Shown here: piece by piece, positions 6,371 to 56,652 of the stretch | How the letters are laid out: each line of letters starts with the position of its first letter | How positions within the stretch are numbered: the first letter of the stretch is position 1 | Origin: Solimonas variicoloris DSM 15731 | Lineage (GTDB): Bacteria; Pseudomonadota; Gammaproteobacteria; Nevskiales; Nevskiaceae | Direction: 5' to 3' | DNA length: 64,000 bases | Assembly: GCF_000382285.1 (NCBI RefSeq) | Contig: NZ_KB907926.1 | Span: 124,001-188,000 of the forward strand | Position numbers and translations under genes: made by a program | Notes under the pieces: generated by a model | What the model was told of the DNA's origin: nothing | What the model saw: the letters and a program-made list of their open reading frames with translations, nothing else | Database searches by the model: none

Positions 6371-6493
6371 GGCACGTCCTCCCGACGTTCCGATGACTCC
6401 GCGGCGCCGAATGCGCGCGCGGGCGATGCAGCATCGTCGCCACCCGGCGGCGATGCGAAGACGCGGCCCGGAGCGGCCCGCGCGATGGATGCT

Positions 6494-7381
6494 TCAGCGC
6501 GCGTCGCGCTCGGATTCGTCGGGACGGTCGTCGTCCGCCGACGGCGTCTCGAGCGGTTCGGCATCGCCTTCGGCCAGCGAATCCGGCGTGTCGACCGGCG
6601 CCGCCTCGATGCCGCGGTCGGCCTCGTCCGCGCCGGCCGATTCGACGGCGTCGTCGGCCGGCGTCTCGACGGGGTCTTCCGCCACTTCCGGCGCCGACGG
6701 CGCCTCGTTGCCCGCGGCCTCGTCGCCGGGCGCCGGCGCCGCGAGCGCGTGCCCTTCGTGCAGCTGTTCGCCGAGACGCGCGAGCGCGGTCTCCAGCTGC
6801 TGCGGATCCTTGATCTCCGGCAGCGACGGCAGGTCGTCGAGCGTGCGCAGGTTCAGATCGTCGAGCAGCTGATGCGTGGTGCCGAACAGCGACGGACGGC
6901 CCGGCACTTCCTTGACCCCGACTTCGCGGATCCAGCCGCGGTCGAGCAAGGTGCGGATGATGTTCGGCGACAGCGCGACGCCGCGCACGTCCTCGATCTC
7001 GCCGCGCGTGATCGGCTGGCGATAGCAGATCAGCGCCAGCGTTTCGAGCAGCGCGCGCGACAGGCGCGGCGGCTTTTCCTGATAAAGCTTGCCGACCCAT
7101 TCGGCGTATTCGCGCCGGACCTGGATGCGCCAGCCGCTCGATACCTCGACCAGCTCGGCGGCGCGCGCGGCAAGGTCCTCGGCGAGCTTGGCGAGCGCCT
7201 CGCGCACGTCCTTCTTGGTCACGCCGAGGTCGTGCGCGAGCATGCGCTGCAGCTGCTCGGTCGGCAGCGGCTGTTCGGACGCGAGCAGAATCGCTTCGAG
7301 GATGCGGTCGAGCTGGGCGATGCGCTCGTCGGCGGTGTTCTGGATGTCGAGATCGACCTGCGGATCGATGGCTTCGCTCAC
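6494..7381 (-). CDS. scpB: Segregation and condensation protein B
   Basis: Winged-helix partner of ScpA and SMC in the bacterial condensin. The core (residues 18-190) has LDRILEAILLASEQPL, the winged-helix block KDVREALAKLAEDLA, and LALICYRQPITRGEIEDVRG with DRGWIREVG. About 100 C-terminal residues are an acidic Ala/Glu/Asp/Pro low-complexity tail. The start is the GTG at 7379-7381, which overlaps the scpA stop in GTGA, and no ATG is available nearby in frame. The gene is last in an overlapping operon (peptidase, trpS, GNAT, scpA, scpB). The SMC it serves lies 10 kb away in this window. Confidence 0.93.
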   Translation of the reverse strand: MSEAIDPQVDLDIQNTADERIAQLDRILEAILLASEQPLPTEQLQRMLAHDLGVTKKDVREALAKLAEDLAARAAELVEVSSGWRIQVRREYAEWVGKLYQEKPPRLSRALLETLALICYRQPITRGEIEDVRGVALSPNIIRTLLDRGWIREVGVKEVPGRPSLFGTTHQLLDDLNLRTLDDLPSLPEIKDPQQLETALARLGEQLHEGHALAAPAPGDEAAGNEAPSAPEVAEDPVETPADDAVESAGADEADRGIEAAPVDTPDSLAEGDAEPLETPSADDDRPDESERDAR

Positions 7382-8259
7382 GTCGGCGACTCCGGTTCGG
7401 GTTCTTCTTCGATCGCGGCCGGCCGCGGCCGCGCCGGCATGACGAGGATCGGCGCGAACGGCCCCTGCTGCTCGATGTCGAGCATCGCCGAACGCGCCAT
7501 TTCGAGGATCGCGAGGAAGCAGACGACGACGCCGAGGCGGCCTTCCTCCGGATCGACGAGCTGGTCGAGCCGGGTCGGGCCTTCCTGGATGCGGGCCAGG
7601 ATGTGCGTCATGCGCTCGCGCACCGACAGCGGCTCGCGCGAGACCTCGTGATGCTTGAACAGCGCCGCGCGCTCCATGATGTCGCGGAACGCGAGCACCA
7701 GCTCGCGCAGCGTCGGCATCGGCAGCTGCGTCGTGGTCGGGATCACCTCGGGGCGCGCCTGGGCGAGGAAGAAATCGCGGCCGATGCGAGGCAGCTTCTC
7801 GATCTCCTCGCTCGCGGTCTTGAATCGCTCGTATTCCTGCAGGCGGCGCACCAGCTCCATGCGCGGATCGCCCTGCTCCTGCGCCTCGTCCGGCGGCGGC
7901 CGCGGCAGCAGGATGCGCGACTTGATCTCGGCGAGCAGCGCGGCCATCACCAGGTATTCGGCGGCCAGTTCGAGCTTCATGTCGCGCATCAGCTCGATGT
8001 ACTGGATGTACTGCTGGGTGATCTTCAGGACCGGAATGTCGAGGATGTTCAGGTTCTGCTTGCGGATCAGGTACAGCAACAGATCGAGCGGGCCCTCGAA
8101 GGCGTCGAGGAACACTTCCATCGCGTCCGGCGGGATGTAGAGGTCCTCGGGCAGCTTGTCGAGTGCATGGCCGTGCACCTTCGGCATGCGGCCGGCATCG
8201 GCCGCCTCGGCCGGCGCCGCGCCCTGCTCCTGTTCCTGCTCGGCCTCGTGCTCGCTCAT
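7378..8259 (-). CDS. scpA: Segregation and condensation protein A (kleisin)
   Basis: Kleisin subunit bridging the SMC heads. The 293-residue protein shows the ScpA N-terminal block FEGPLDLLLYLIRKQNLNIL and DIPVLKITQQYIQYIELM, a middle MAALLAEIKSRILLPRP block, and a C-terminal winged-helix region with VVCFLAILEMARS. The first 30 residues are Glu/Gln/Ala rich. The start at 8259 is chosen because ATGA joins it to the preceding acetyltransferase stop. A second in-frame ATG 27 codons later is possible. It overlaps scpB by 4 bp, implying coupled synthesis of the two condensin subunits. Confidence 0.94.
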   Translation of the reverse strand: MSEHEAEQEQEQGAAPAEAADAGRMPKVHGHALDKLPEDLYIPPDAMEVFLDAFEGPLDLLLYLIRKQNLNILDIPVLKITQQYIQYIELMRDMKLELAAEYLVMAALLAEIKSRILLPRPPPDEAQEQGDPRMELVRRLQEYERFKTASEEIEKLPRIGRDFFLAQARPEVIPTTTQLPMPTLRELVLAFRDIMERAALFKHHEVSREPLSVRERMTHILARIQEGPTRLDQLVDPEEGRLGVVVCFLAILEMARSAMLDIEQQGPFAPILVMPARPRPAAIEEEPEPESPT

Positions 8260-13648: not shown

Positions 13649-17166
<3,518 letters not shown>

Positions 17167-50593: not shown

Positions 50594-51901
50594 TCAGCCT
50601 TGCGCCGGCAGCACGGTCCCCTCGACCTCGCCGAAACCGATCCGCGCCACCCCCTCGCCGGTGCACCAGCCGCGCAGGACGACGCGATCACCGTCGGCCA
50701 GGAAGCTGCGCGCCTCGCCGCCGATCGTCAGCGGCCGCTGCCCGCCTGCGGTCAGTTCGAGCAGCGAGCCGGCTTCGCCCGGCGTCGGCCCCGACTGCGT
50801 GCCGGTGCCGAGCAGATCGCCCGGGCGCAGATTGCAGCCGTTGACGCTGTGGTGGGCGACCAGCTGCGCGATCGTCCAGTACGCGTGCCGGAAGCTGGTC
50901 TCGGACAGCGCCTGCGGCGCCTCGCCGCGCGCGCGCATCGCCGCCGTCTCGATCAGCACCTGCAGGCGGATGTCGAAGGCGCCCGCGGCCCGGTTCGCCG
51001 CCGAATCGAGGTACGGCAGCGGCGCCGGATCGCCGTCCGGACGCACGAACGGCCGTCGGTACGGCGCCAGCGCCTCCAGCGTCACGATCCACGGTGAAAT
51101 CGTGGTCGCGAAGTTCTTGGCGAGGAACGGACCGAGCGGCTGGTATTCCCAGGCCTGCAGATCGCGCGCCGACCAGTCGTTGAGCAGACAAAGTCCGAAG
51201 ATGTGCGACTCGGCCTCGGCGATCGGCACCGCCTGGCCGAGGGCGTTGCCTGGGCCGACGAAGACGCCGAGCTCGAGCTCGTAATCGAGCTTCTTCGACG
51301 GCCCGAAGGTGGGCGCCGCCGCGCCCGGCGCCAGCGTCTGCCCGCAGGGCCGTGCGAAGCGCTGGCCGGAAACGCCGATCGACGAACTGCGCCCGTGGTA
51401 GCCGATCGGCACCCACCGGTAGTTCGGCAGCAGCGGCTGGTCGGGCCGGAACAGGCGGCCGACGCTGGTCGCGTGGTGGATCGAGGCATAGAAATCCGTG
51501 TAGTCGCCGATCGTCGCCGGCAAGGCGTACTCGGCCTCGGCCTGCGCCAGCAGGCAGGGCTCGAGCGTCGCGCGCAGCGACGAACCCTCGCGCAGCGCGC
51601 GCGACAGCGCCAGGCGCAGTGCCGACCAGGCCGGCGCACCGAGCGCCATCAGCGCGTTCAGCGTCGCCTGCGCGCCGGCCTGCAGGGCCTGCGCCGCGAG
51701 GCCTTCGAACGGTGCGCGTGCGGCGAGCGCCGCCAGATCGACGATCCGCTCGCCGATCGCGACGCCGCCGCGCCACGCCTCGTCCGTGCCGCGACGGCGG
51801 AACACCGCGAACGGCAGGTTCTGGATCGGAAAATCACCGTCGGACGCCTGCGCGCCGGGCACCCAGCTGCGCAGCGACGGCGCGTGTGTTTCGTTGAGCA
51901 T
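50594..51901 (-). CDS. fahA: Fumarylacetoacetase
   Basis: Last step of tyrosine/homogentisate breakdown, giving fumarate and acetoacetate. 435 residues: N-terminal SH3-like domain (LRSWVPGAQ, FPIQNLPFAVF) and the FAH domain with IHHATSVGRLFRPDQPLLPN, YHGRSSSIGVSGQ, FGPSKKLDYELELGVFVG, NDWSARDLQAWEYQPLGPFL, and GDLLGTGTQSGPTPGEAGSL. I start at the ATG at 51901; a TTG at 51913 in the hmgA overlap is a possible alternative. It follows hmgA by 5 bp, so the two form an operon. Maleylacetoacetate isomerase is not in the window. Confidence 0.96.
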   Translation of the reverse strand: MLNETHAPSLRSWVPGAQASDGDFPIQNLPFAVFRRRGTDEAWRGGVAIGERIVDLAALAARAPFEGLAAQALQAGAQATLNALMALGAPAWSALRLALSRALREGSSLRATLEPCLLAQAEAEYALPATIGDYTDFYASIHHATSVGRLFRPDQPLLPNYRWVPIGYHGRSSSIGVSGQRFARPCGQTLAPGAAAPTFGPSKKLDYELELGVFVGPGNALGQAVPIAEAESHIFGLCLLNDWSARDLQAWEYQPLGPFLAKNFATTISPWIVTLEALAPYRRPFVRPDGDPAPLPYLDSAANRAAGAFDIRLQVLIETAAMRARGEAPQALSETSFRHAYWTIAQLVAHHSVNGCNLRPGDLLGTGTQSGPTPGEAGSLLELTAGGQRPLTIGGEARSFLADGDRVVLRGWCTGEGVARIGFGEVEGTVLPAQG

Positions 51902-51906
51902 GAAGA

Positions 51907-53211
51907 TCAGCAATGTGCGGGATCGAAGTGCTTGCGCAGGCCCTGCCAGCAGGCGCGGTAATCACGCTGCCGATGCGGGGCATCGACGGCGGCGCGCGCC
52001 GGCACGAGCGGCAGCCGGGACTCGAACATGAAGGCCATGGTGTCAGCGATGCGCTCCGGGCGCGACAGGTCGGCGTGGCTCGCCCGCTCGAACGTCGCCG
52101 CATCGGGGCCGTGGCCGCTCATGCAGTTGTGCAGCGAGGCGCCGCCGGGCACGAAACCGTCGGCCTTGGCGTCGTAGACGCCGTGGATCAGGCCCATGAA
52201 TTCGCTGGCGACGTTGCGGTGGAACCACGGCGGCCGGAACGTGTCCTGCATCACCAGCCAGCGCGGCGGAAAAATCACGAAATCGAGGTTGCTGACGCCG
52301 TCGCTGTCGCTTGGCGCGTGCAGCACGAGGAAGATCGACGGGTCGGGATGGTCGTAGGAGATCGAGCCGATCGCGTTGAAGCGCCGCAGATCGTAGCGAT
52401 ACGGCGCGTGACGCCCGTGCCAGGCGACGACGTCGAGCGGCGAATGGTCGATCTGCGCGCGCCACAGGCGGCCCTGATACTTGGCGAGCAATTCGCCGTC
52501 GACCTCGCGATCCTCGTAGGCCGCAACCGGCGTCTCGAAGTCGCGGGCATTGGCGAGGCCGTTGGCGCCGATCGGACCGAGATCCGGCAGCTTCAGCGGC
52601 GCACCGAAGTTCTCGCAAACATAGCCGCGCGCCGTCGCGTCGCGCAGTTCGACGGCGAAGCGCACGCCGCGCGGGATCACCGCGATCTGCTGCGGCTCGA
52701 GCTCGATGCGGCCGAGTTCGGTCGCCAGCCGCAGGCGTCCGAGCTGCGGCACGATCAGCAGTTCGCCGTCGGCATCGTAGAACCAGCGCTCGCGCATCGA
52801 GCGGTTCGCTGCATAGAGATAGATCGCGCAACCGCTCTGCAGCGCCGGCCCGCCGTTGCCGGCGTAGGCGACGAGTCCGTCGACGAAGTCGGTCGCTGCG
52901 GTCGGCAGCGGCAGCGGACCCCAGCGCAGCGGCTCGGGCGTCGCCAAGCCGTCGGCCAGCGCTTCGATGCCGGCATGCGGCAGCGGCATGAACGCGCCGT
53001 GCGTCAGCGCCGGGCGGATGCGGTACAGCCAGGTGCGCCGGTTGGCATGGCGCGGCGCCGTGAATGCGGTGCCGGACAGTTGCTCGGCGTAGAGACCGTA
53101 GGCACAGCGCTGCGGCGCATTGCGACCGACCGGCAGCGCGCCGGGCAAGGCCTCGGTCGCGAACTCGTTGCCGAAGCCGCTCTGGTACGGCGCGCCGCTG
53201 GCGATACGCAT
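51907..53211 (-). CDS. hmgA: Homogentisate 1,2-dioxygenase
   Basis: Fe(II) ring-cleavage dioxygenase converting homogentisate to maleylacetoacetate. 434 residues: [33 protein letters not shown], cupin core with [40 protein letters not shown], and the iron-ligand region [18 protein letters not shown] and [12 protein letters not shown]. The start at 53211 is fixed by GGAGGAG five to seven nt upstream; the long extended frame continues antisense to the marR gene. hmgA-fahA is divergent from a MarR regulator. Confidence 0.97.
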
Positions 53212-53284
53212 GGGGACTCCTCCGGCGGTCGGGCGCCTTCGCCGGCTCGTGCCAAGCTCGACGGCTCGCTGCGCCGCTTCTATA

Positions 53285-53298
53285 GTTGTGATCGCAAC
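53285..53298. promoter_or_regulatory. Palindromic operator in the hmgA-marR divergent region
   Basis: GTTGTGATCGCAAC is a 14-bp palindrome with one mismatch (GTTGYGATCGCAAC), placed between hmgA and the divergent marR-type gene. Size and symmetry fit a MarR dimer. CTATAG next to it may belong to the hmgA -10. It is likely bound by the adjacent regulator. Confidence 0.55.
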
Positions 53299-53346
53299 CA
53301 TCGTAGAAAGCGACCCGGACCGGGTCAAGACGGGAGAAACCCCGGG

Positions 53347-53880
53347 ATGCCCGCCGCCACCGAGCTGCAGCTGCTGCGCTTCCTGCCGTTCCGCCTCAAC
53401 CGGCTGGCCGTCGAAGTCAGCCAGAATCTGGCGCAGATCTACCGGCAGCGCTACGGCATCGATGTCCCGGAATGGCGCATCCTCGCCACGCTGGGCGCCG
53501 AAGGCCGCTGCACGGCACAGGCGATCGCCGCCTCGACGCGCATGCACAAGACCCGCGTCAGCCGCGCGGTCGCCTATCTGCGGGAAGCGGGTCACGTCCG
53601 CGTCGCGGGCGGCACGGCCGACGGCCGTGAAACGCAGCTGCAGCTGACGCCGCGCGGGCGCCGCCTCTACGAAACGCTGGTGCCGCTGGCGCTGGCGCGC
53701 GAGCGCGAGTTGCTCGCCACGCTGGACCCCGTCCTGGCCGCGGCCTTTCTCGAAGCGCTGGACCGTCTCGAAACGGCGCTGCAGCTGCCGCGCACCGAAG
53801 CCGCCCTTCGCGCCGGCCGGCCCGAAGGGCCGCGGCAGACGGCCCGGCAAACGTCCGGCAGCACCGCGCGAAGTACCTGA
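53347..53880 (+). CDS. MarR-family transcriptional regulator
   Basis: 177 residues, winged helix-turn-helix. [20 protein letters not shown] opens the core, [20 protein letters not shown] is the helix-turn-helix, [20 protein letters not shown] is the wing, and [18 protein letters not shown] follows. About 25 residues form a charged C-terminal tail. It is divergent from hmgA-fahA and the likely repressor of that operon, with homogentisate or a related aromatic acid as ligand (inference from position). GGGAG lies about 14 nt before the ATG. Confidence 0.92.
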
Positions 53881-53887
53881 GGCCGAG

Positions 53888-55333
53888 CTATAGCGGCACG
53901 CCCATCGCGCGGCCGATCTGCCAGATGTTCTTGTCGACCTGTTCCGAGACCATCATGATGACCGACTGCTCGGCGCTCATCTTGGCGGCCTCCTGCAGCG
54001 CCCAGCCGAGCGCATACGCAGTCTCGATCGCCGGAATGACGCCCTCGTGTTTGCTGAGGTCGTAGACAGCGCGCTTGGCAGCCGCCGGCGTGCCCTTCAC
54101 ATACTCGACGCGGCCGCTCGCCTTGAGCCAGGCGTGTTCGCGCGTCGTGCGCGGATAATCCATGCCTTCGAGAATCACCGCCGCGCGCTGCTGCTCCTGC
54201 AGCGTCAAGGTCTGCGGCCCGCCGCCGCCGCGCTCGGCAGCGGCATCGAGATGATCGCGCGTTTCGACGCAGACCAGGCGGGTGCCGGCCGCGCGCAGGA
54301 ACGGCGGAAACAGGCCGATCGCATCGGCATTGTCGCCGGCGCGCGCGACCAGCAGGTCCGGCACTTTCTTGTTGATCGCATACAGCTGGCGACGACATTC
54401 GCGCCCCGCCACCGAAGCCATTTCCAGCGACAGCATCGGATACGGGTGCGGCGCCGCGTCGAGCCCCATCGCCAGAAAGCACTCGCCGAGATTGGCGACC
54501 CAGTGCGCCCAGGCCTCCTTGCGGATGTCGCTGGTCTTGCTCGGCCCGGTGCCGGCCTCGAGGACCTGGGCGCCCATCATCCACATGCGGAACAGATTTC
54601 CGGCCTGCAACTGCATCTGGCAGCTTTCCATGTAGACCACCGCGTCGAGCCCGAGGCGCGCTGCCACCGAGGCGAGCACCACGCCGCTGCGCCCGTTGGC
54701 GCTGAAACCGACCAGCGTCTTCTTGCCCATGCGCTTGGCCAGCATCGCCTGGCCGCACAGCGCCGCGAGCAGGTGCGAGGGCTGGGCGCTGAGGTCCTCG
54801 CGCTTCAGATAGATGCGCGCGCCGCCGACATGGCGCGACAGCGAAGCGGCGAACTGCAGCGAAGTCGGGTGTCCGGCGCTCTGGATCAGCTCGGCGTCGA
54901 GCTCGGCGATGAAATGCGGGTCCTTGCGCACCGCCTCGTAGGCTTCGGCGACTTCGGCAAGCGGCTTGCGGAAACGCTCGTCCTCGCCGATGCGCTTGTA
55001 CTCGCGCGGGGCGGACGCCCTGGCGGCGATGTACTCGACCTTGCCGTCGACCTCGGCTTCGAGAAACATCGGATCGTCGAGGGCGATGATGCGTCCCATG
55101 CTGACGATCCGGCTCCAGTCCTGCGAGCGCCGCAGGTTCGGAATCATGTCCTGGACCTGGCGCGCGTGCTTGAGGAAAGCCTCGACCCGGCGCGTCTCGT
55201 AGTACAGCTCGACCAGCTTCAGCCGCAGGTCCAGGACGGTGGGCTGGCTGGCGATCTGACGCAGCAGCAGCTTTTCGAGATCGTCGTAGAACGCCCCCGT
55301 ACTCTGAACCCTGACACTGCCGCGCTCCGTCAT
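53888..55333 (-). CDS. TrpB-fold protein lacking the PLP lysine (putative pseudoenzyme) with FimV-like N-terminus
   Basis: 481 residues. Residues 155-478 align with tryptophan synthase beta: [71 protein letters not shown] and [14 protein letters not shown]. The catalytic positions are lost. The Lys of HKxN is Leu188 (SHLLA), the Glu of AETGAGQHG is Phe210 (GFSANGRSG), the phosphate-binding GGGSN is RAGDN, and SGRGDKD is SEQVDKN. Residues 10-95 are a helical segment ([32 protein letters not shown]) resembling the repeat near the C-terminus of FimV. The ATG is preceded by GGAAGGGG, and a TATACT lies about 27 nt upstream. It is not linked to trp genes. Function unknown. Confidence 0.85.
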
Positions 55334-55379
55334 AGCAGCCCCTTCCCGTTGAGGCGGCCAGTATAAGGGGGGCTCCGCG

Positions 55380-56465
55380 TCAGAGCGCCAGATCCAGCTG
55401 GTCGCCGGCTTGCGGCGGCACGCGGAACTGCGTCGTCGACAGCCAGGCGCTGCGCTCGCCGGTATTCAGGCCCAGACGCCGGCAGGCCAGGTCGAAACGC
55501 TGGCGGATGATGCGCGCGTACTCGCCCTGCCCGGTCATGCGGCTGCCGAACGCCGGGTCGTTGTCGCGGCCGCCGCGCATCTGCCGGACCAGGCTCATGA
55601 CGTGCTCCGCCTTCAGCGGCAGATGCGTCTCCAGCCATTCGCGGAACAAATCCTTCACCTCGTGCGGCAGACGCAGCGGGATATGCGCCGCCTGCCGCGC
55701 GCCGGCCGCGTGCGCCGCGGCGAGGATGCTTTCCAGTTCGGCATCGTTGACGAAGGGAATGACCGGCGAATACAGCACCATGGTCGGGATACCCGCCTCG
55801 GACAAGGCCCGTAGCGTACGCAGACGCGCCGCGCCGGAGGCGGCGCGCGGCTCCAGCGTGCGCTTGAGCTCGGGCTTGAGCGTGGTGATCGAGACCGCGA
55901 CCGTCGCCAGACCGTCGCGCGCCAGATCCTGCAGCAGGTCGATGTCGCGCTCGATCAGGGTGCCCTTGGTGACGATGCCGACCGGATGGCGGAAACGCAC
56001 CATTACTTCGAGCAGGCTGCGCGTGATGCGCAAATCCCGCTCGACCGGCTGGTACGGATCGGTATTGGCGCCGAGCGAGATCATCGAGCAGCGGTAGCCG
56101 GGCCGGCGCAGCTCGGCCTCCAGCAGCGCTGCGGCGTTCGGCTTGTAGAACAGCTGCGTTTCGAAATCGAGGCCCGGCGACAGGTTCAGATAGGCGTGCG
56201 TCGGCCGCGCGTAGCAATAGATGCAGCCGTGCTCGCAGCCGCGATACGGATTGATCGACTGCGTGAACGGCAGGTCCGGAGAATCGTTGCGCGCAATGAT
56301 CGTGCGTGCCTGCTCGACGTGCAGCGTCGTCGCCTGCCGCGGCGGCGCGTCTTCGTCGAGCAGCCAGCCGTCGTCGAAACGCTCGGCGCGGCGCGACTCG
56401 AAGCGCCCCTCCGGATTGGAGACGGCGCCGCGCCCCTTCGGCGGCACGGACCCGGCGTCGCGCAT
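55380..56465 (-). CDS. Radical SAM protein, PA0069 family (SplB-like)
   Basis: 361 residues. The iron-sulfur motif is CEHGCIYC (CxxxCxxC) in SINPYRGCEHGCIYCYARPT, residues about 70-89. SLGANTDPYQPVERDL, VGIVTKGTLIERDIDLL, VAVSITTL and IPTMVLYSPVIPFVNDAE follow. The family resembles spore photoproduct lyase, but its reaction is not established. The ATG at 56465 follows a small open frame whose stop is two bases upstream (TGAGATG), implying coupling. Confidence 0.92.
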   Translation of the reverse strand: MRDAGSVPPKGRGAVSNPEGRFESRRAERFDDGWLLDEDAPPRQATTLHVEQARTIIARNDSPDLPFTQSINPYRGCEHGCIYCYARPTHAYLNLSPGLDFETQLFYKPNAAALLEAELRRPGYRCSMISLGANTDPYQPVERDLRITRSLLEVMVRFRHPVGIVTKGTLIERDIDLLQDLARDGLATVAVSITTLKPELKRTLEPRAASGAARLRTLRALSEAGIPTMVLYSPVIPFVNDAELESILAAAHAAGARQAAHIPLRLPHEVKDLFREWLETHLPLKAEHVMSLVRQMRGGRDNDPAFGSRMTGQGEYARIIRQRFDLACRRLGLNTGERSAWLSTTQFRVPPQAGDQLDLAL

Positions 56466-56466
56466 C

Positions 56467-56652
56467 TCAGGCTCGGCGCCGGCCTGCGGCGGCGACGCGC
56501 CGCTCGTCGGCGCTGGCCGTACGGCCGGAGGTCACGCCGCGCCCGGCGCGATCGCTCGGCCGTGCCGGAGCGCCGCCGCCCGGCGCGCGCATGGCGTTCG
56601 CATCAAGCGCGACGCGGGCGGCACAAATGGCACGGCAGCGCAGGCGAGACAT
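56467..56652 (-). CDS. Possible small upstream ORF of the radical SAM gene
   Basis: 61 codons, Arg/Ala rich (MSRLRCRAICAARVALDANA at the start). It has no recognisable family. In favour: the ATG is preceded by CCGGAG at a good distance, and the stop is directly joined to the radical SAM start. Against: composition is what random high-GC frames give. It may be a leader peptide or not translated. Confidence 0.3.
   Translation of the reverse strand: MSRLRCRAICAARVALDANAMRAPGGGAPARPSDRAGRGVTSGRTASADERRVAAAGRRRA

Follow-up and report, generated by a model that had tools for sequence, protein, structure and literature searches.

The 64,000-nucleotide stretch of Solimonas variicoloris DSM 15731 analysed here (the window) encodes a 481-residue protein that joins a TPR-like block derived from FimV to a homologue of the tryptophan synthase beta subunit (TrpB) in which the catalytic residues have been lost. 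The protein belongs to a family of 31 members that lack these residues throughout, form a single clade, are under purifying selection and in six cases carry the FimV_N domain. We consider it probable that the TrpB pseudoenzyme provides a scaffold descended from FimV/HubP with its binding head; the window copy would be a reduced and probably cytosolic version of such a scaffold. The features of the gene are collected in Table 1.

Table 1. Features of the pseudo-TrpB gene and its upstream flank (window coordinates)
Feature	Position	Strand	Basis
Whole gene, 481 aa: FimV-type TPR block and pseudo-TrpB domain	53888..55333	-	intact frame, ATG start
FimV-derived TPR-like block, residues 15-95 (approx.)	55049..55291	-	matches to host FimV frame and to FimV elsewhere
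Predicted TrpB-fold pseudoenzyme domain, residues 119-481	53891..54979	-	profile matches and alignment
R114, invariant in family (31/31), just ahead of TrpB-like region	54992..54994	-	
Leu188, at position of PLP Schiff-base lysine (Lys87)	54770..54772	-	alignment
Phe210, at position of catalytic Glu109	54704..54706	-	alignment
R331-A-G-D-N-A-D337, in place of phosphate loop region CVGGGSN	54323..54343	-	alignment
Segment of residues 357-397 (V356 to R398), 41 aa here	54143..54265	-	alignment
R398, invariant in family (31/31); Pro in 27/27 comparison TrpB rows	54140..54142	-	
S463-E-Q-V-D-K-N469, in place of SGRGDKD	53927..53947	-	alignment
46-nt gap to upstream gene; AAGGGG before ATG, TATACT-like element	55334..55379	.	
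Radical SAM gene, directly upstream, same strand	55380..56465	-	

Results

A TrpB homologue without its catalytic residues

Residues 121-474 of the window protein aligned to the trpB profile TIGR00263 with an E-value of 1.7e-73 and 247.9 bits, without reaching the profile cut-off of 392.45 bits, and a Pfam PALP match was found at E 3.7e-19. The top PDB match was chain B of 5ey5 (LBCA-b, E 7.4e-74). The host genome carries a separate intact canonical trpB, which scores 621.7 bits. The HPYP and EG(V/I)IPA blocks are retained, in agreement with the description of the C-terminal part as TrpB-like in the first-pass annotation of this DNA, and a third fold block, REHAWLK..GR, is like HPYP and EGVIPA well retained in the window copy and in most members of the short clade described below. 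As judged from sequence, this part is predicted to keep the TrpB fold in three dimensions. Out of 150 columns that are near-invariant in a comparison set of TrpB rows (at least 26/27), 33 are kept in at least 25/31 family members.

Alignment confirmed the earlier placing of Leu188 and Phe210 at the positions of Lys87 and Glu109 (residue names which we take to follow E. coli/Salmonella TrpB numbering) and of SEQVDKN opposite SGRGDKD; the proposed pairing of GGGSN with RAGDN proved to be two residues out of register, the true counterpart being G333-D-N-A-D337. Lys87 is kept in none of the 31 family members (three have a gap there) and neither is Asn236, the Asn of GGGSN, against 27/27 comparison rows for each (25 of the 27 rows being different), where the lysine and GGGSN are present in 24 rows by construction because these were picked by their TGAHK and GGGSN motifs, a filter that dropped none of the 24 loci tried. 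Glu109, which was not selected for, is likewise kept in 0/31 family members and in 27/27 comparison rows, and the Ser of GGGSN survives in 1/31 members. The pseudoenzyme reading, to which orthologues with the PLP lysine would have run counter, thus holds across the family. The further claim that every cofactor contact had been lost is right for Lys87, Glu109 and Asn236 and too strong as a whole, because the window copy retains four contacts: His86 (H187), Glu350 (E437), Ser377 (S463) and the first Gly of GGGSN (G333), which are kept family-wide in 11/31, 12/31, 7/31 and 22/31 members, respectively.

The N-terminal block matches the cytoplasmic TPR region of FimV

The N-terminal block of the window protein matches the FimV frame of the host (G000:C12:34915-35139, E 8.0e-7) over residues ~577-652 of the 849-aa host FimV, that is its cytoplasmic TPR block; FimV_Cterm of the host FimV lies at 807-850 of the open frame, outside the matched region. 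The resemblance to a repeat near the FimV C-terminus that had been noted at first is therefore correct as to a link with FimV, the matched part being the cytoplasmic TPR block and not FimV_Cterm. Besides the split piece of G023, twenty matches of the window query in genomes of the same order cover the N-terminal part only: 17 agree in contig and open-frame length with an independently found FimV_N match, two (G028, G034) occur where fimV appears split over contigs, and one (G040:C20:76270) is not FimV. Together with FimV_N in six long homologues, the 17 matches in FimV frames bear out the link to FimV independently.

Profile searches did not recognise the block: residues 1-119 gave no Pfam or NCBIfam match when searched alone, and TPR_19 reached 23.6 bits in the relative G025, below the cut-off of 25. 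FimV_N (PF25800) is absent from the window protein and from its open frame, no match to LysM/FimV_core (TIGR03505) or FimV_Cterm (TIGR03504) was found in the protein, and among seven proteins searched FimV_Cterm was present in host FimV only. No transmembrane helix was detected in the window protein, the top 19-residue hydropathy of 1.61 falling inside the TrpB part.

Many genomes of the order contain second FimV_N frames of ~320-760 aa without a pseudo-TrpB match at these places (for example G006:C3:58251, G002:C12:49389, G034:C17:3806, G031:C3:155166 and G068:C18:56257), which are further FimV-like paralogues.

Architectures and distribution of the family

Homologues, window protein included, number 31 in 26/85 genomes of the order: 25 of these genomes account for 30 full-length places, and the 26th has one split gene. 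A further TrpB-type match is listed in 25 of these 26 fusion genomes, none being shown in G016 (79% complete). The contig search gave one relative, a family member in Solimonas flava (L023) that is 92% identical. FimV_N precedes the TPR-pseudoTrpB unit in 6/31 members (G021b, E 4.2e-23; G015b, 2.3e-8; G016b, 2.5e-13; G073, 3.5e-20; G061, 2.2e-27; G060b, 3.9e-13), two of which score with FimV_core below its cut-off of 43.45 bits (G015b, 38.6; G016b, 16.1), the other four having no match. Membrane helices are candidates by simple hydropathy only: a stretch above 1.9 outside the TrpB part was found in seven relatives, namely four of the six FimV_N members, where it lies ahead of the TPR block, and G025, G015a and G062, which have a helix of 2.6-3.1 at the N-terminus and no FimV_N. 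The helix candidates of the remaining FimV_N members are weaker (G016b, 1.62; G060b, 1.70). In the other 22/31 members, including the window protein and the split G023, there is no FimV_N in the frames, and hydropathy outside the TrpB part nowhere exceeds 1.9. The G023 member is divided between two frames (L032 8076-9530 and 9089-9523, minus strand), with the TPR block and the TrpB part in different frames, possibly through a frameshift or a sequencing error, and G016b ends short of the usual C-terminus.

The gene is accessory, since 5/11 genomes of the genus, host counted, are without it (G002, G004, G005, G006, G010). In these five the radical SAM gene adjoins carA, the two matches lying 133-236 bp apart, and a search for remnants at E 1e-6 found none; in G009 the pseudo-TrpB gene is at another place. 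Outside the order, none of the matches listed from 365 class genomes joined both parts, and among the matches listed in the class surveys the TPR block and TrpB occurred together in the window's own row only. The first of these surveys covered 370 genomes at least 90% complete (the 365 lying outside the order), with up to four candidates scored per genome and matches listed down to about E 6e-110; the second covered 369 genomes, with rows at E<=1e-42 and up to seven candidates scored, and all 34 genomes with at least two matches in the first survey were searched a second time. A divergent fusion could have escaped these surveys.

Tree and origin of the fusion

The phylogeny of the TrpB part was computed under LG+G4 from the 31 family members with 15 rows of the same order, nine of other orders and three second-type TrpB paralogues, which served as the root. 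All 31 members form one clade with support of 100/100, in a tree where several long branches are flagged, including the join of the outgroup with the family. A deep split divides it in two. The long clade, with 10 members (98/93), contains every one of the six FimV_N types, two members that have a helix only and two that are soluble; in the short clade, with 21 members (100/99), G025 branches first with weak support (89/72).

The order of genes in the host is asd-fimV-truA-trpF-trpB (asd, truA and trpF assigned by eye). Canonical fimV lies within 2.3-6.5 kb of trpB on one contig in 62/73 genomes, the two being on different contigs in the remaining 11, in a count that takes one hand-picked fimV place and one hand-picked trpB place per genome (78 and 76 genomes) and omits fusion-borne FimV_N and some trpB fragments. 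Because canonical fimV is so close to trpB, a fimV::trpB fusion is the likely origin of the family, and it could have come about by duplication of the fimV-trpB stretch followed by an inner deletion.

The family would go back to a single event in which a fimV-type gene was joined to trpB, in an ancestor belonging to the order (probably Nevskiales). The first members were probably membrane proteins of the FimV/HubP type, with signal peptide, FimV_N, membrane helix and TPR, whose acidic linker and FimV_Cterm had given way to a dead TrpB domain, and the window copy would then be a reduced form that has shed the periplasmic and membrane parts. A single fusion with later losses of these parts is the simplest history; we word the ancestral state conditionally because no member of the short clade has FimV_N.

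Remodelling of the former active site

Two arginines are invariant in the family (R114 and R398) and three charged residues, R331, D337 and E464, are each present in 21/21 members of the short clade, which suggests that a new site may be maintained. A ligand sensor could be built in this way, the reshaped PLP pocket binding a small molecule (an amino acid, indole or a phosphate compound) and thereby altering what the TPR block holds. The strict conservation of the new charges in the former phosphate/pyridine cradle of the short clade and the survival of H187, E437 and S463 of the old site in the window copy would fit such a function, but the same charges could merely be salt bridges that close the pocket, and a ligand common to the whole family is unlikely because the long clade does not share R331, D337 and E464. 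We hold the sensor to be unlikely on the whole, and still an open option where the short clade is concerned.

The equivalent of K167, in Salmonella presumably a contact to the alpha subunit, is kept in 1/31 family members against 27/27 comparison rows. The stretch bounded by V356 and R398, which we take to line the indole tunnel, has been cut from the 55-56 residues of the comparison rows to 13-51. Both changes would speak against a dead subunit that binds the alpha subunit TrpA to activate it and release free indole, as a plant TSB-like protein does, a reading that we hold to be quite improbable. A dead TrpB paralogue with such a role exists in eudicots, according to PMC12727527, and a trpA-like ORF was recognised by eye near the host trpB (L024 11135-12256); but the plant protein, by the same source, changed two key residues, whereas the greater part of the PLP site has disappeared here.

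Still less probable is an active enzyme of other chemistry, with PLP held non-covalently or on another lysine, or with no PLP. The well-retained fold blocks would be in keeping with an enzyme, but Lys87, Glu109 and Asn236 are gone in 31/31 and the alignment of the 31 members contains no family-specific conserved lysine column: the sole strongly conserved one, K177, is common to TrpB, and positions 39, 204, 205, 420 and 468 have Lys in 16-20 members.

Purifying selection

By the Nei-Gojobori method, dN/dS between the window gene and its nearest relative G007 is 0.120 (0.087 for the TrpB part and 0.223 for the N-terminal part), and over 13 family pairs it ranges from 0.058 to 0.470. The N-terminal part changes faster and taken alone reaches 0.688 in one pair (window against G003), and canonical trpB gave 0.241 in one pair (window genome against G006). 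The family is under purifying selection and, with an intact frame here, is therefore not decaying, as the first-pass annotation had argued. A functionless trpB duplicate on its way out, which the patchy presence (26/85 genomes of the order, missing in 5/11 of the genus), the split G023 gene and the short G016b might bring to mind, is hardly credible, being already contradicted by the dN/dS values and the frames retained (a single open frame in 30/31) and fitting poorly with one clade that has invariant new residues. Loss of the catalytic residues in 31/31 members, a single clade and purifying selection speak for the conserved pseudoenzyme proposed at the outset and, taken with the TrpB homology, would make the protein a TrpB-fold pseudoenzyme as far as sequence can tell.

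Genomic neighbourhood

On its upstream side the gene is followed by the radical SAM gene, a GNAT gene and dapB, and on the downstream side by MarR, hmgA, fah, carA, a LysE-type gene and carB, in this order. Since the radical SAM gene is on the same strand and just 46 nt away, the two genes are likely co-transcribed; it also adjoins the pseudo-TrpB gene in G007, G003, G008 and G001. The good ribosome binding site and -10 element claimed earlier find a counterpart in the AAGGGG and TATACT-like elements upstream of the gene, and a sigma-70 scan of 53700-56600 detected no promoter. The hmgA, fah and MarR genes occupy 50594-53880 of the window, between the pseudo-TrpB gene and carA. Only the window and G007 have hmgA and fah beside the pseudo-TrpB gene, and neither gene was found at that place in G001, G003, G008 or six further congeners searched. 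Parts of the gene order are shared with G007, G003, G008 and G001; neighbourhoods are conserved among close relatives only, so that no partner is suggested by the operon and we rejected the neighbourhood as a guide to one.

One long member, G021b, sits between fliM and fliG: the FimV_N-pseudoTrpB gene (L039 8382-10964, plus strand) lies inside a flagellar cluster on the strand opposite to its flanking genes fliM (6411-7412, minus) and fliG (14517-15524, minus). A general link to flagella was rejected, fliM being no commoner in fusion genomes (19/26) than in the others (45/59) and G073, the genome of the G021b orthologue, showing no fliM match; flagella are not required. PilT (E<=1e-60) cannot discriminate because it was found in 83/85 genomes overall, among them 25/26 fusion genomes, G065 being the fusion genome that shows none. 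In G025, whose pseudo-TrpB is membrane-anchored, the gene for a ParA/MinD-type ATPase (L034 10885-11685, plus strand) follows one gene downstream of the pseudo-TrpB gene; ParA-type proteins are clients of HubP.

Discussion

We favour a binding function over catalysis because PLP chemistry has been lost, the framework of the fold is kept, new charged residues are invariant and the TPR block is of the FimV type. If it is the part through which a scaffold of FimV/HubP descent binds, the pseudo-TrpB would belong to an adaptor. Its TPR block and its remodelled TrpB body would attach to partner proteins or to a ligand other than PLP, and the adaptor would connect a client to FimV-like machinery of the pole or envelope. 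The pseudo-TrpB of the long forms occupies the place of the C-terminal domain that in HubP is the presumed main client interface, and may itself bind clients. A polar location of the window protein does not follow, because the short forms are without membrane anchor, FimV_N, LysM core and FimV_Cterm. That a polar landmark swapped its C-terminal client-binding domain for a dead TrpB, and that its descendants turned into cytosolic adaptors after losing the membrane part, is in our judgement a serious possibility that we stop short of calling probable. If true, a metabolic enzyme fold would have been turned into a docking or sensing module of the cell pole within one bacterial order.

TrpB is a much-studied PLP enzyme, and the family offers 31 natural sequences in which the PLP site is mostly dismantled and the sequence framework of the fold is kept. 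In the open-licence PMC literature we found no description of this TrpB pseudoenzyme family, nor of a bacterial pseudo-TrpB fused to a pole-organising scaffold. Since forms with FimV_N and helix, with a helix only and with neither all exist, a possible path from enzyme to scaffold domain can be traced. Such genes are probably easily mistaken for enzymes, because Pfam and NCBIfam profile searches of the window protein show the PLP-enzyme domain only. The new C-terminal head makes FimV/HubP clients, and differences between species, testable.

Comparison with known systems

Among TrpB proteins, the family resembles canonical TrpB (TIGR00263) in that the whole fold can be aligned and the HPYP and EG(V/I)IPA blocks are retained, but the window protein stays below the profile cut-off, is joined to a TPR block of FimV type and no longer has Lys87, Glu109, Asn236 or the greater part of the phosphate loop. 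The second TrpB paralogues of G020, G040 and G009 are likewise TrpB homologues beside another TrpB copy; unlike the family they retain Lys87, Glu109 and GGGSN and group outside it (the G009 frame being without its C-terminus). They are found at G020:C17:58813, G040:C54:46654 and G009:C1:85429-86546, the last in two match pieces and perhaps broken near the C-terminus. The plant TSB-like protein (PMC12727527) is a non-catalytic TrpB paralogue as here and shows that binding can be the way in which a dead TrpB works; by that paper it differs in its plant origin, in having two key residues changed and in having kept TSA activation, whereas little of the PLP site is left in the window family, which carries the FimV block.

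The polar landmarks FimV, HubP and TspA share with the family the FimV-like TPR block of the window protein and, in six relatives, FimV_N with hydrophobic stretches fit for a membrane helix. Unlike them, the window protein lacks FimV_N, LysM core, membrane helix and FimV_Cterm, and the long relatives have pseudo-TrpB in place of FimV_Cterm, with a linker after the helix that in the five measured is 46-102 aa long and 0-15% acidic. According to PMC12918733, the C-terminal TPR domain of HubP is the presumed main client interface, plays a minor role in swimming and has to be bound by PdeB for PdeB to be active.
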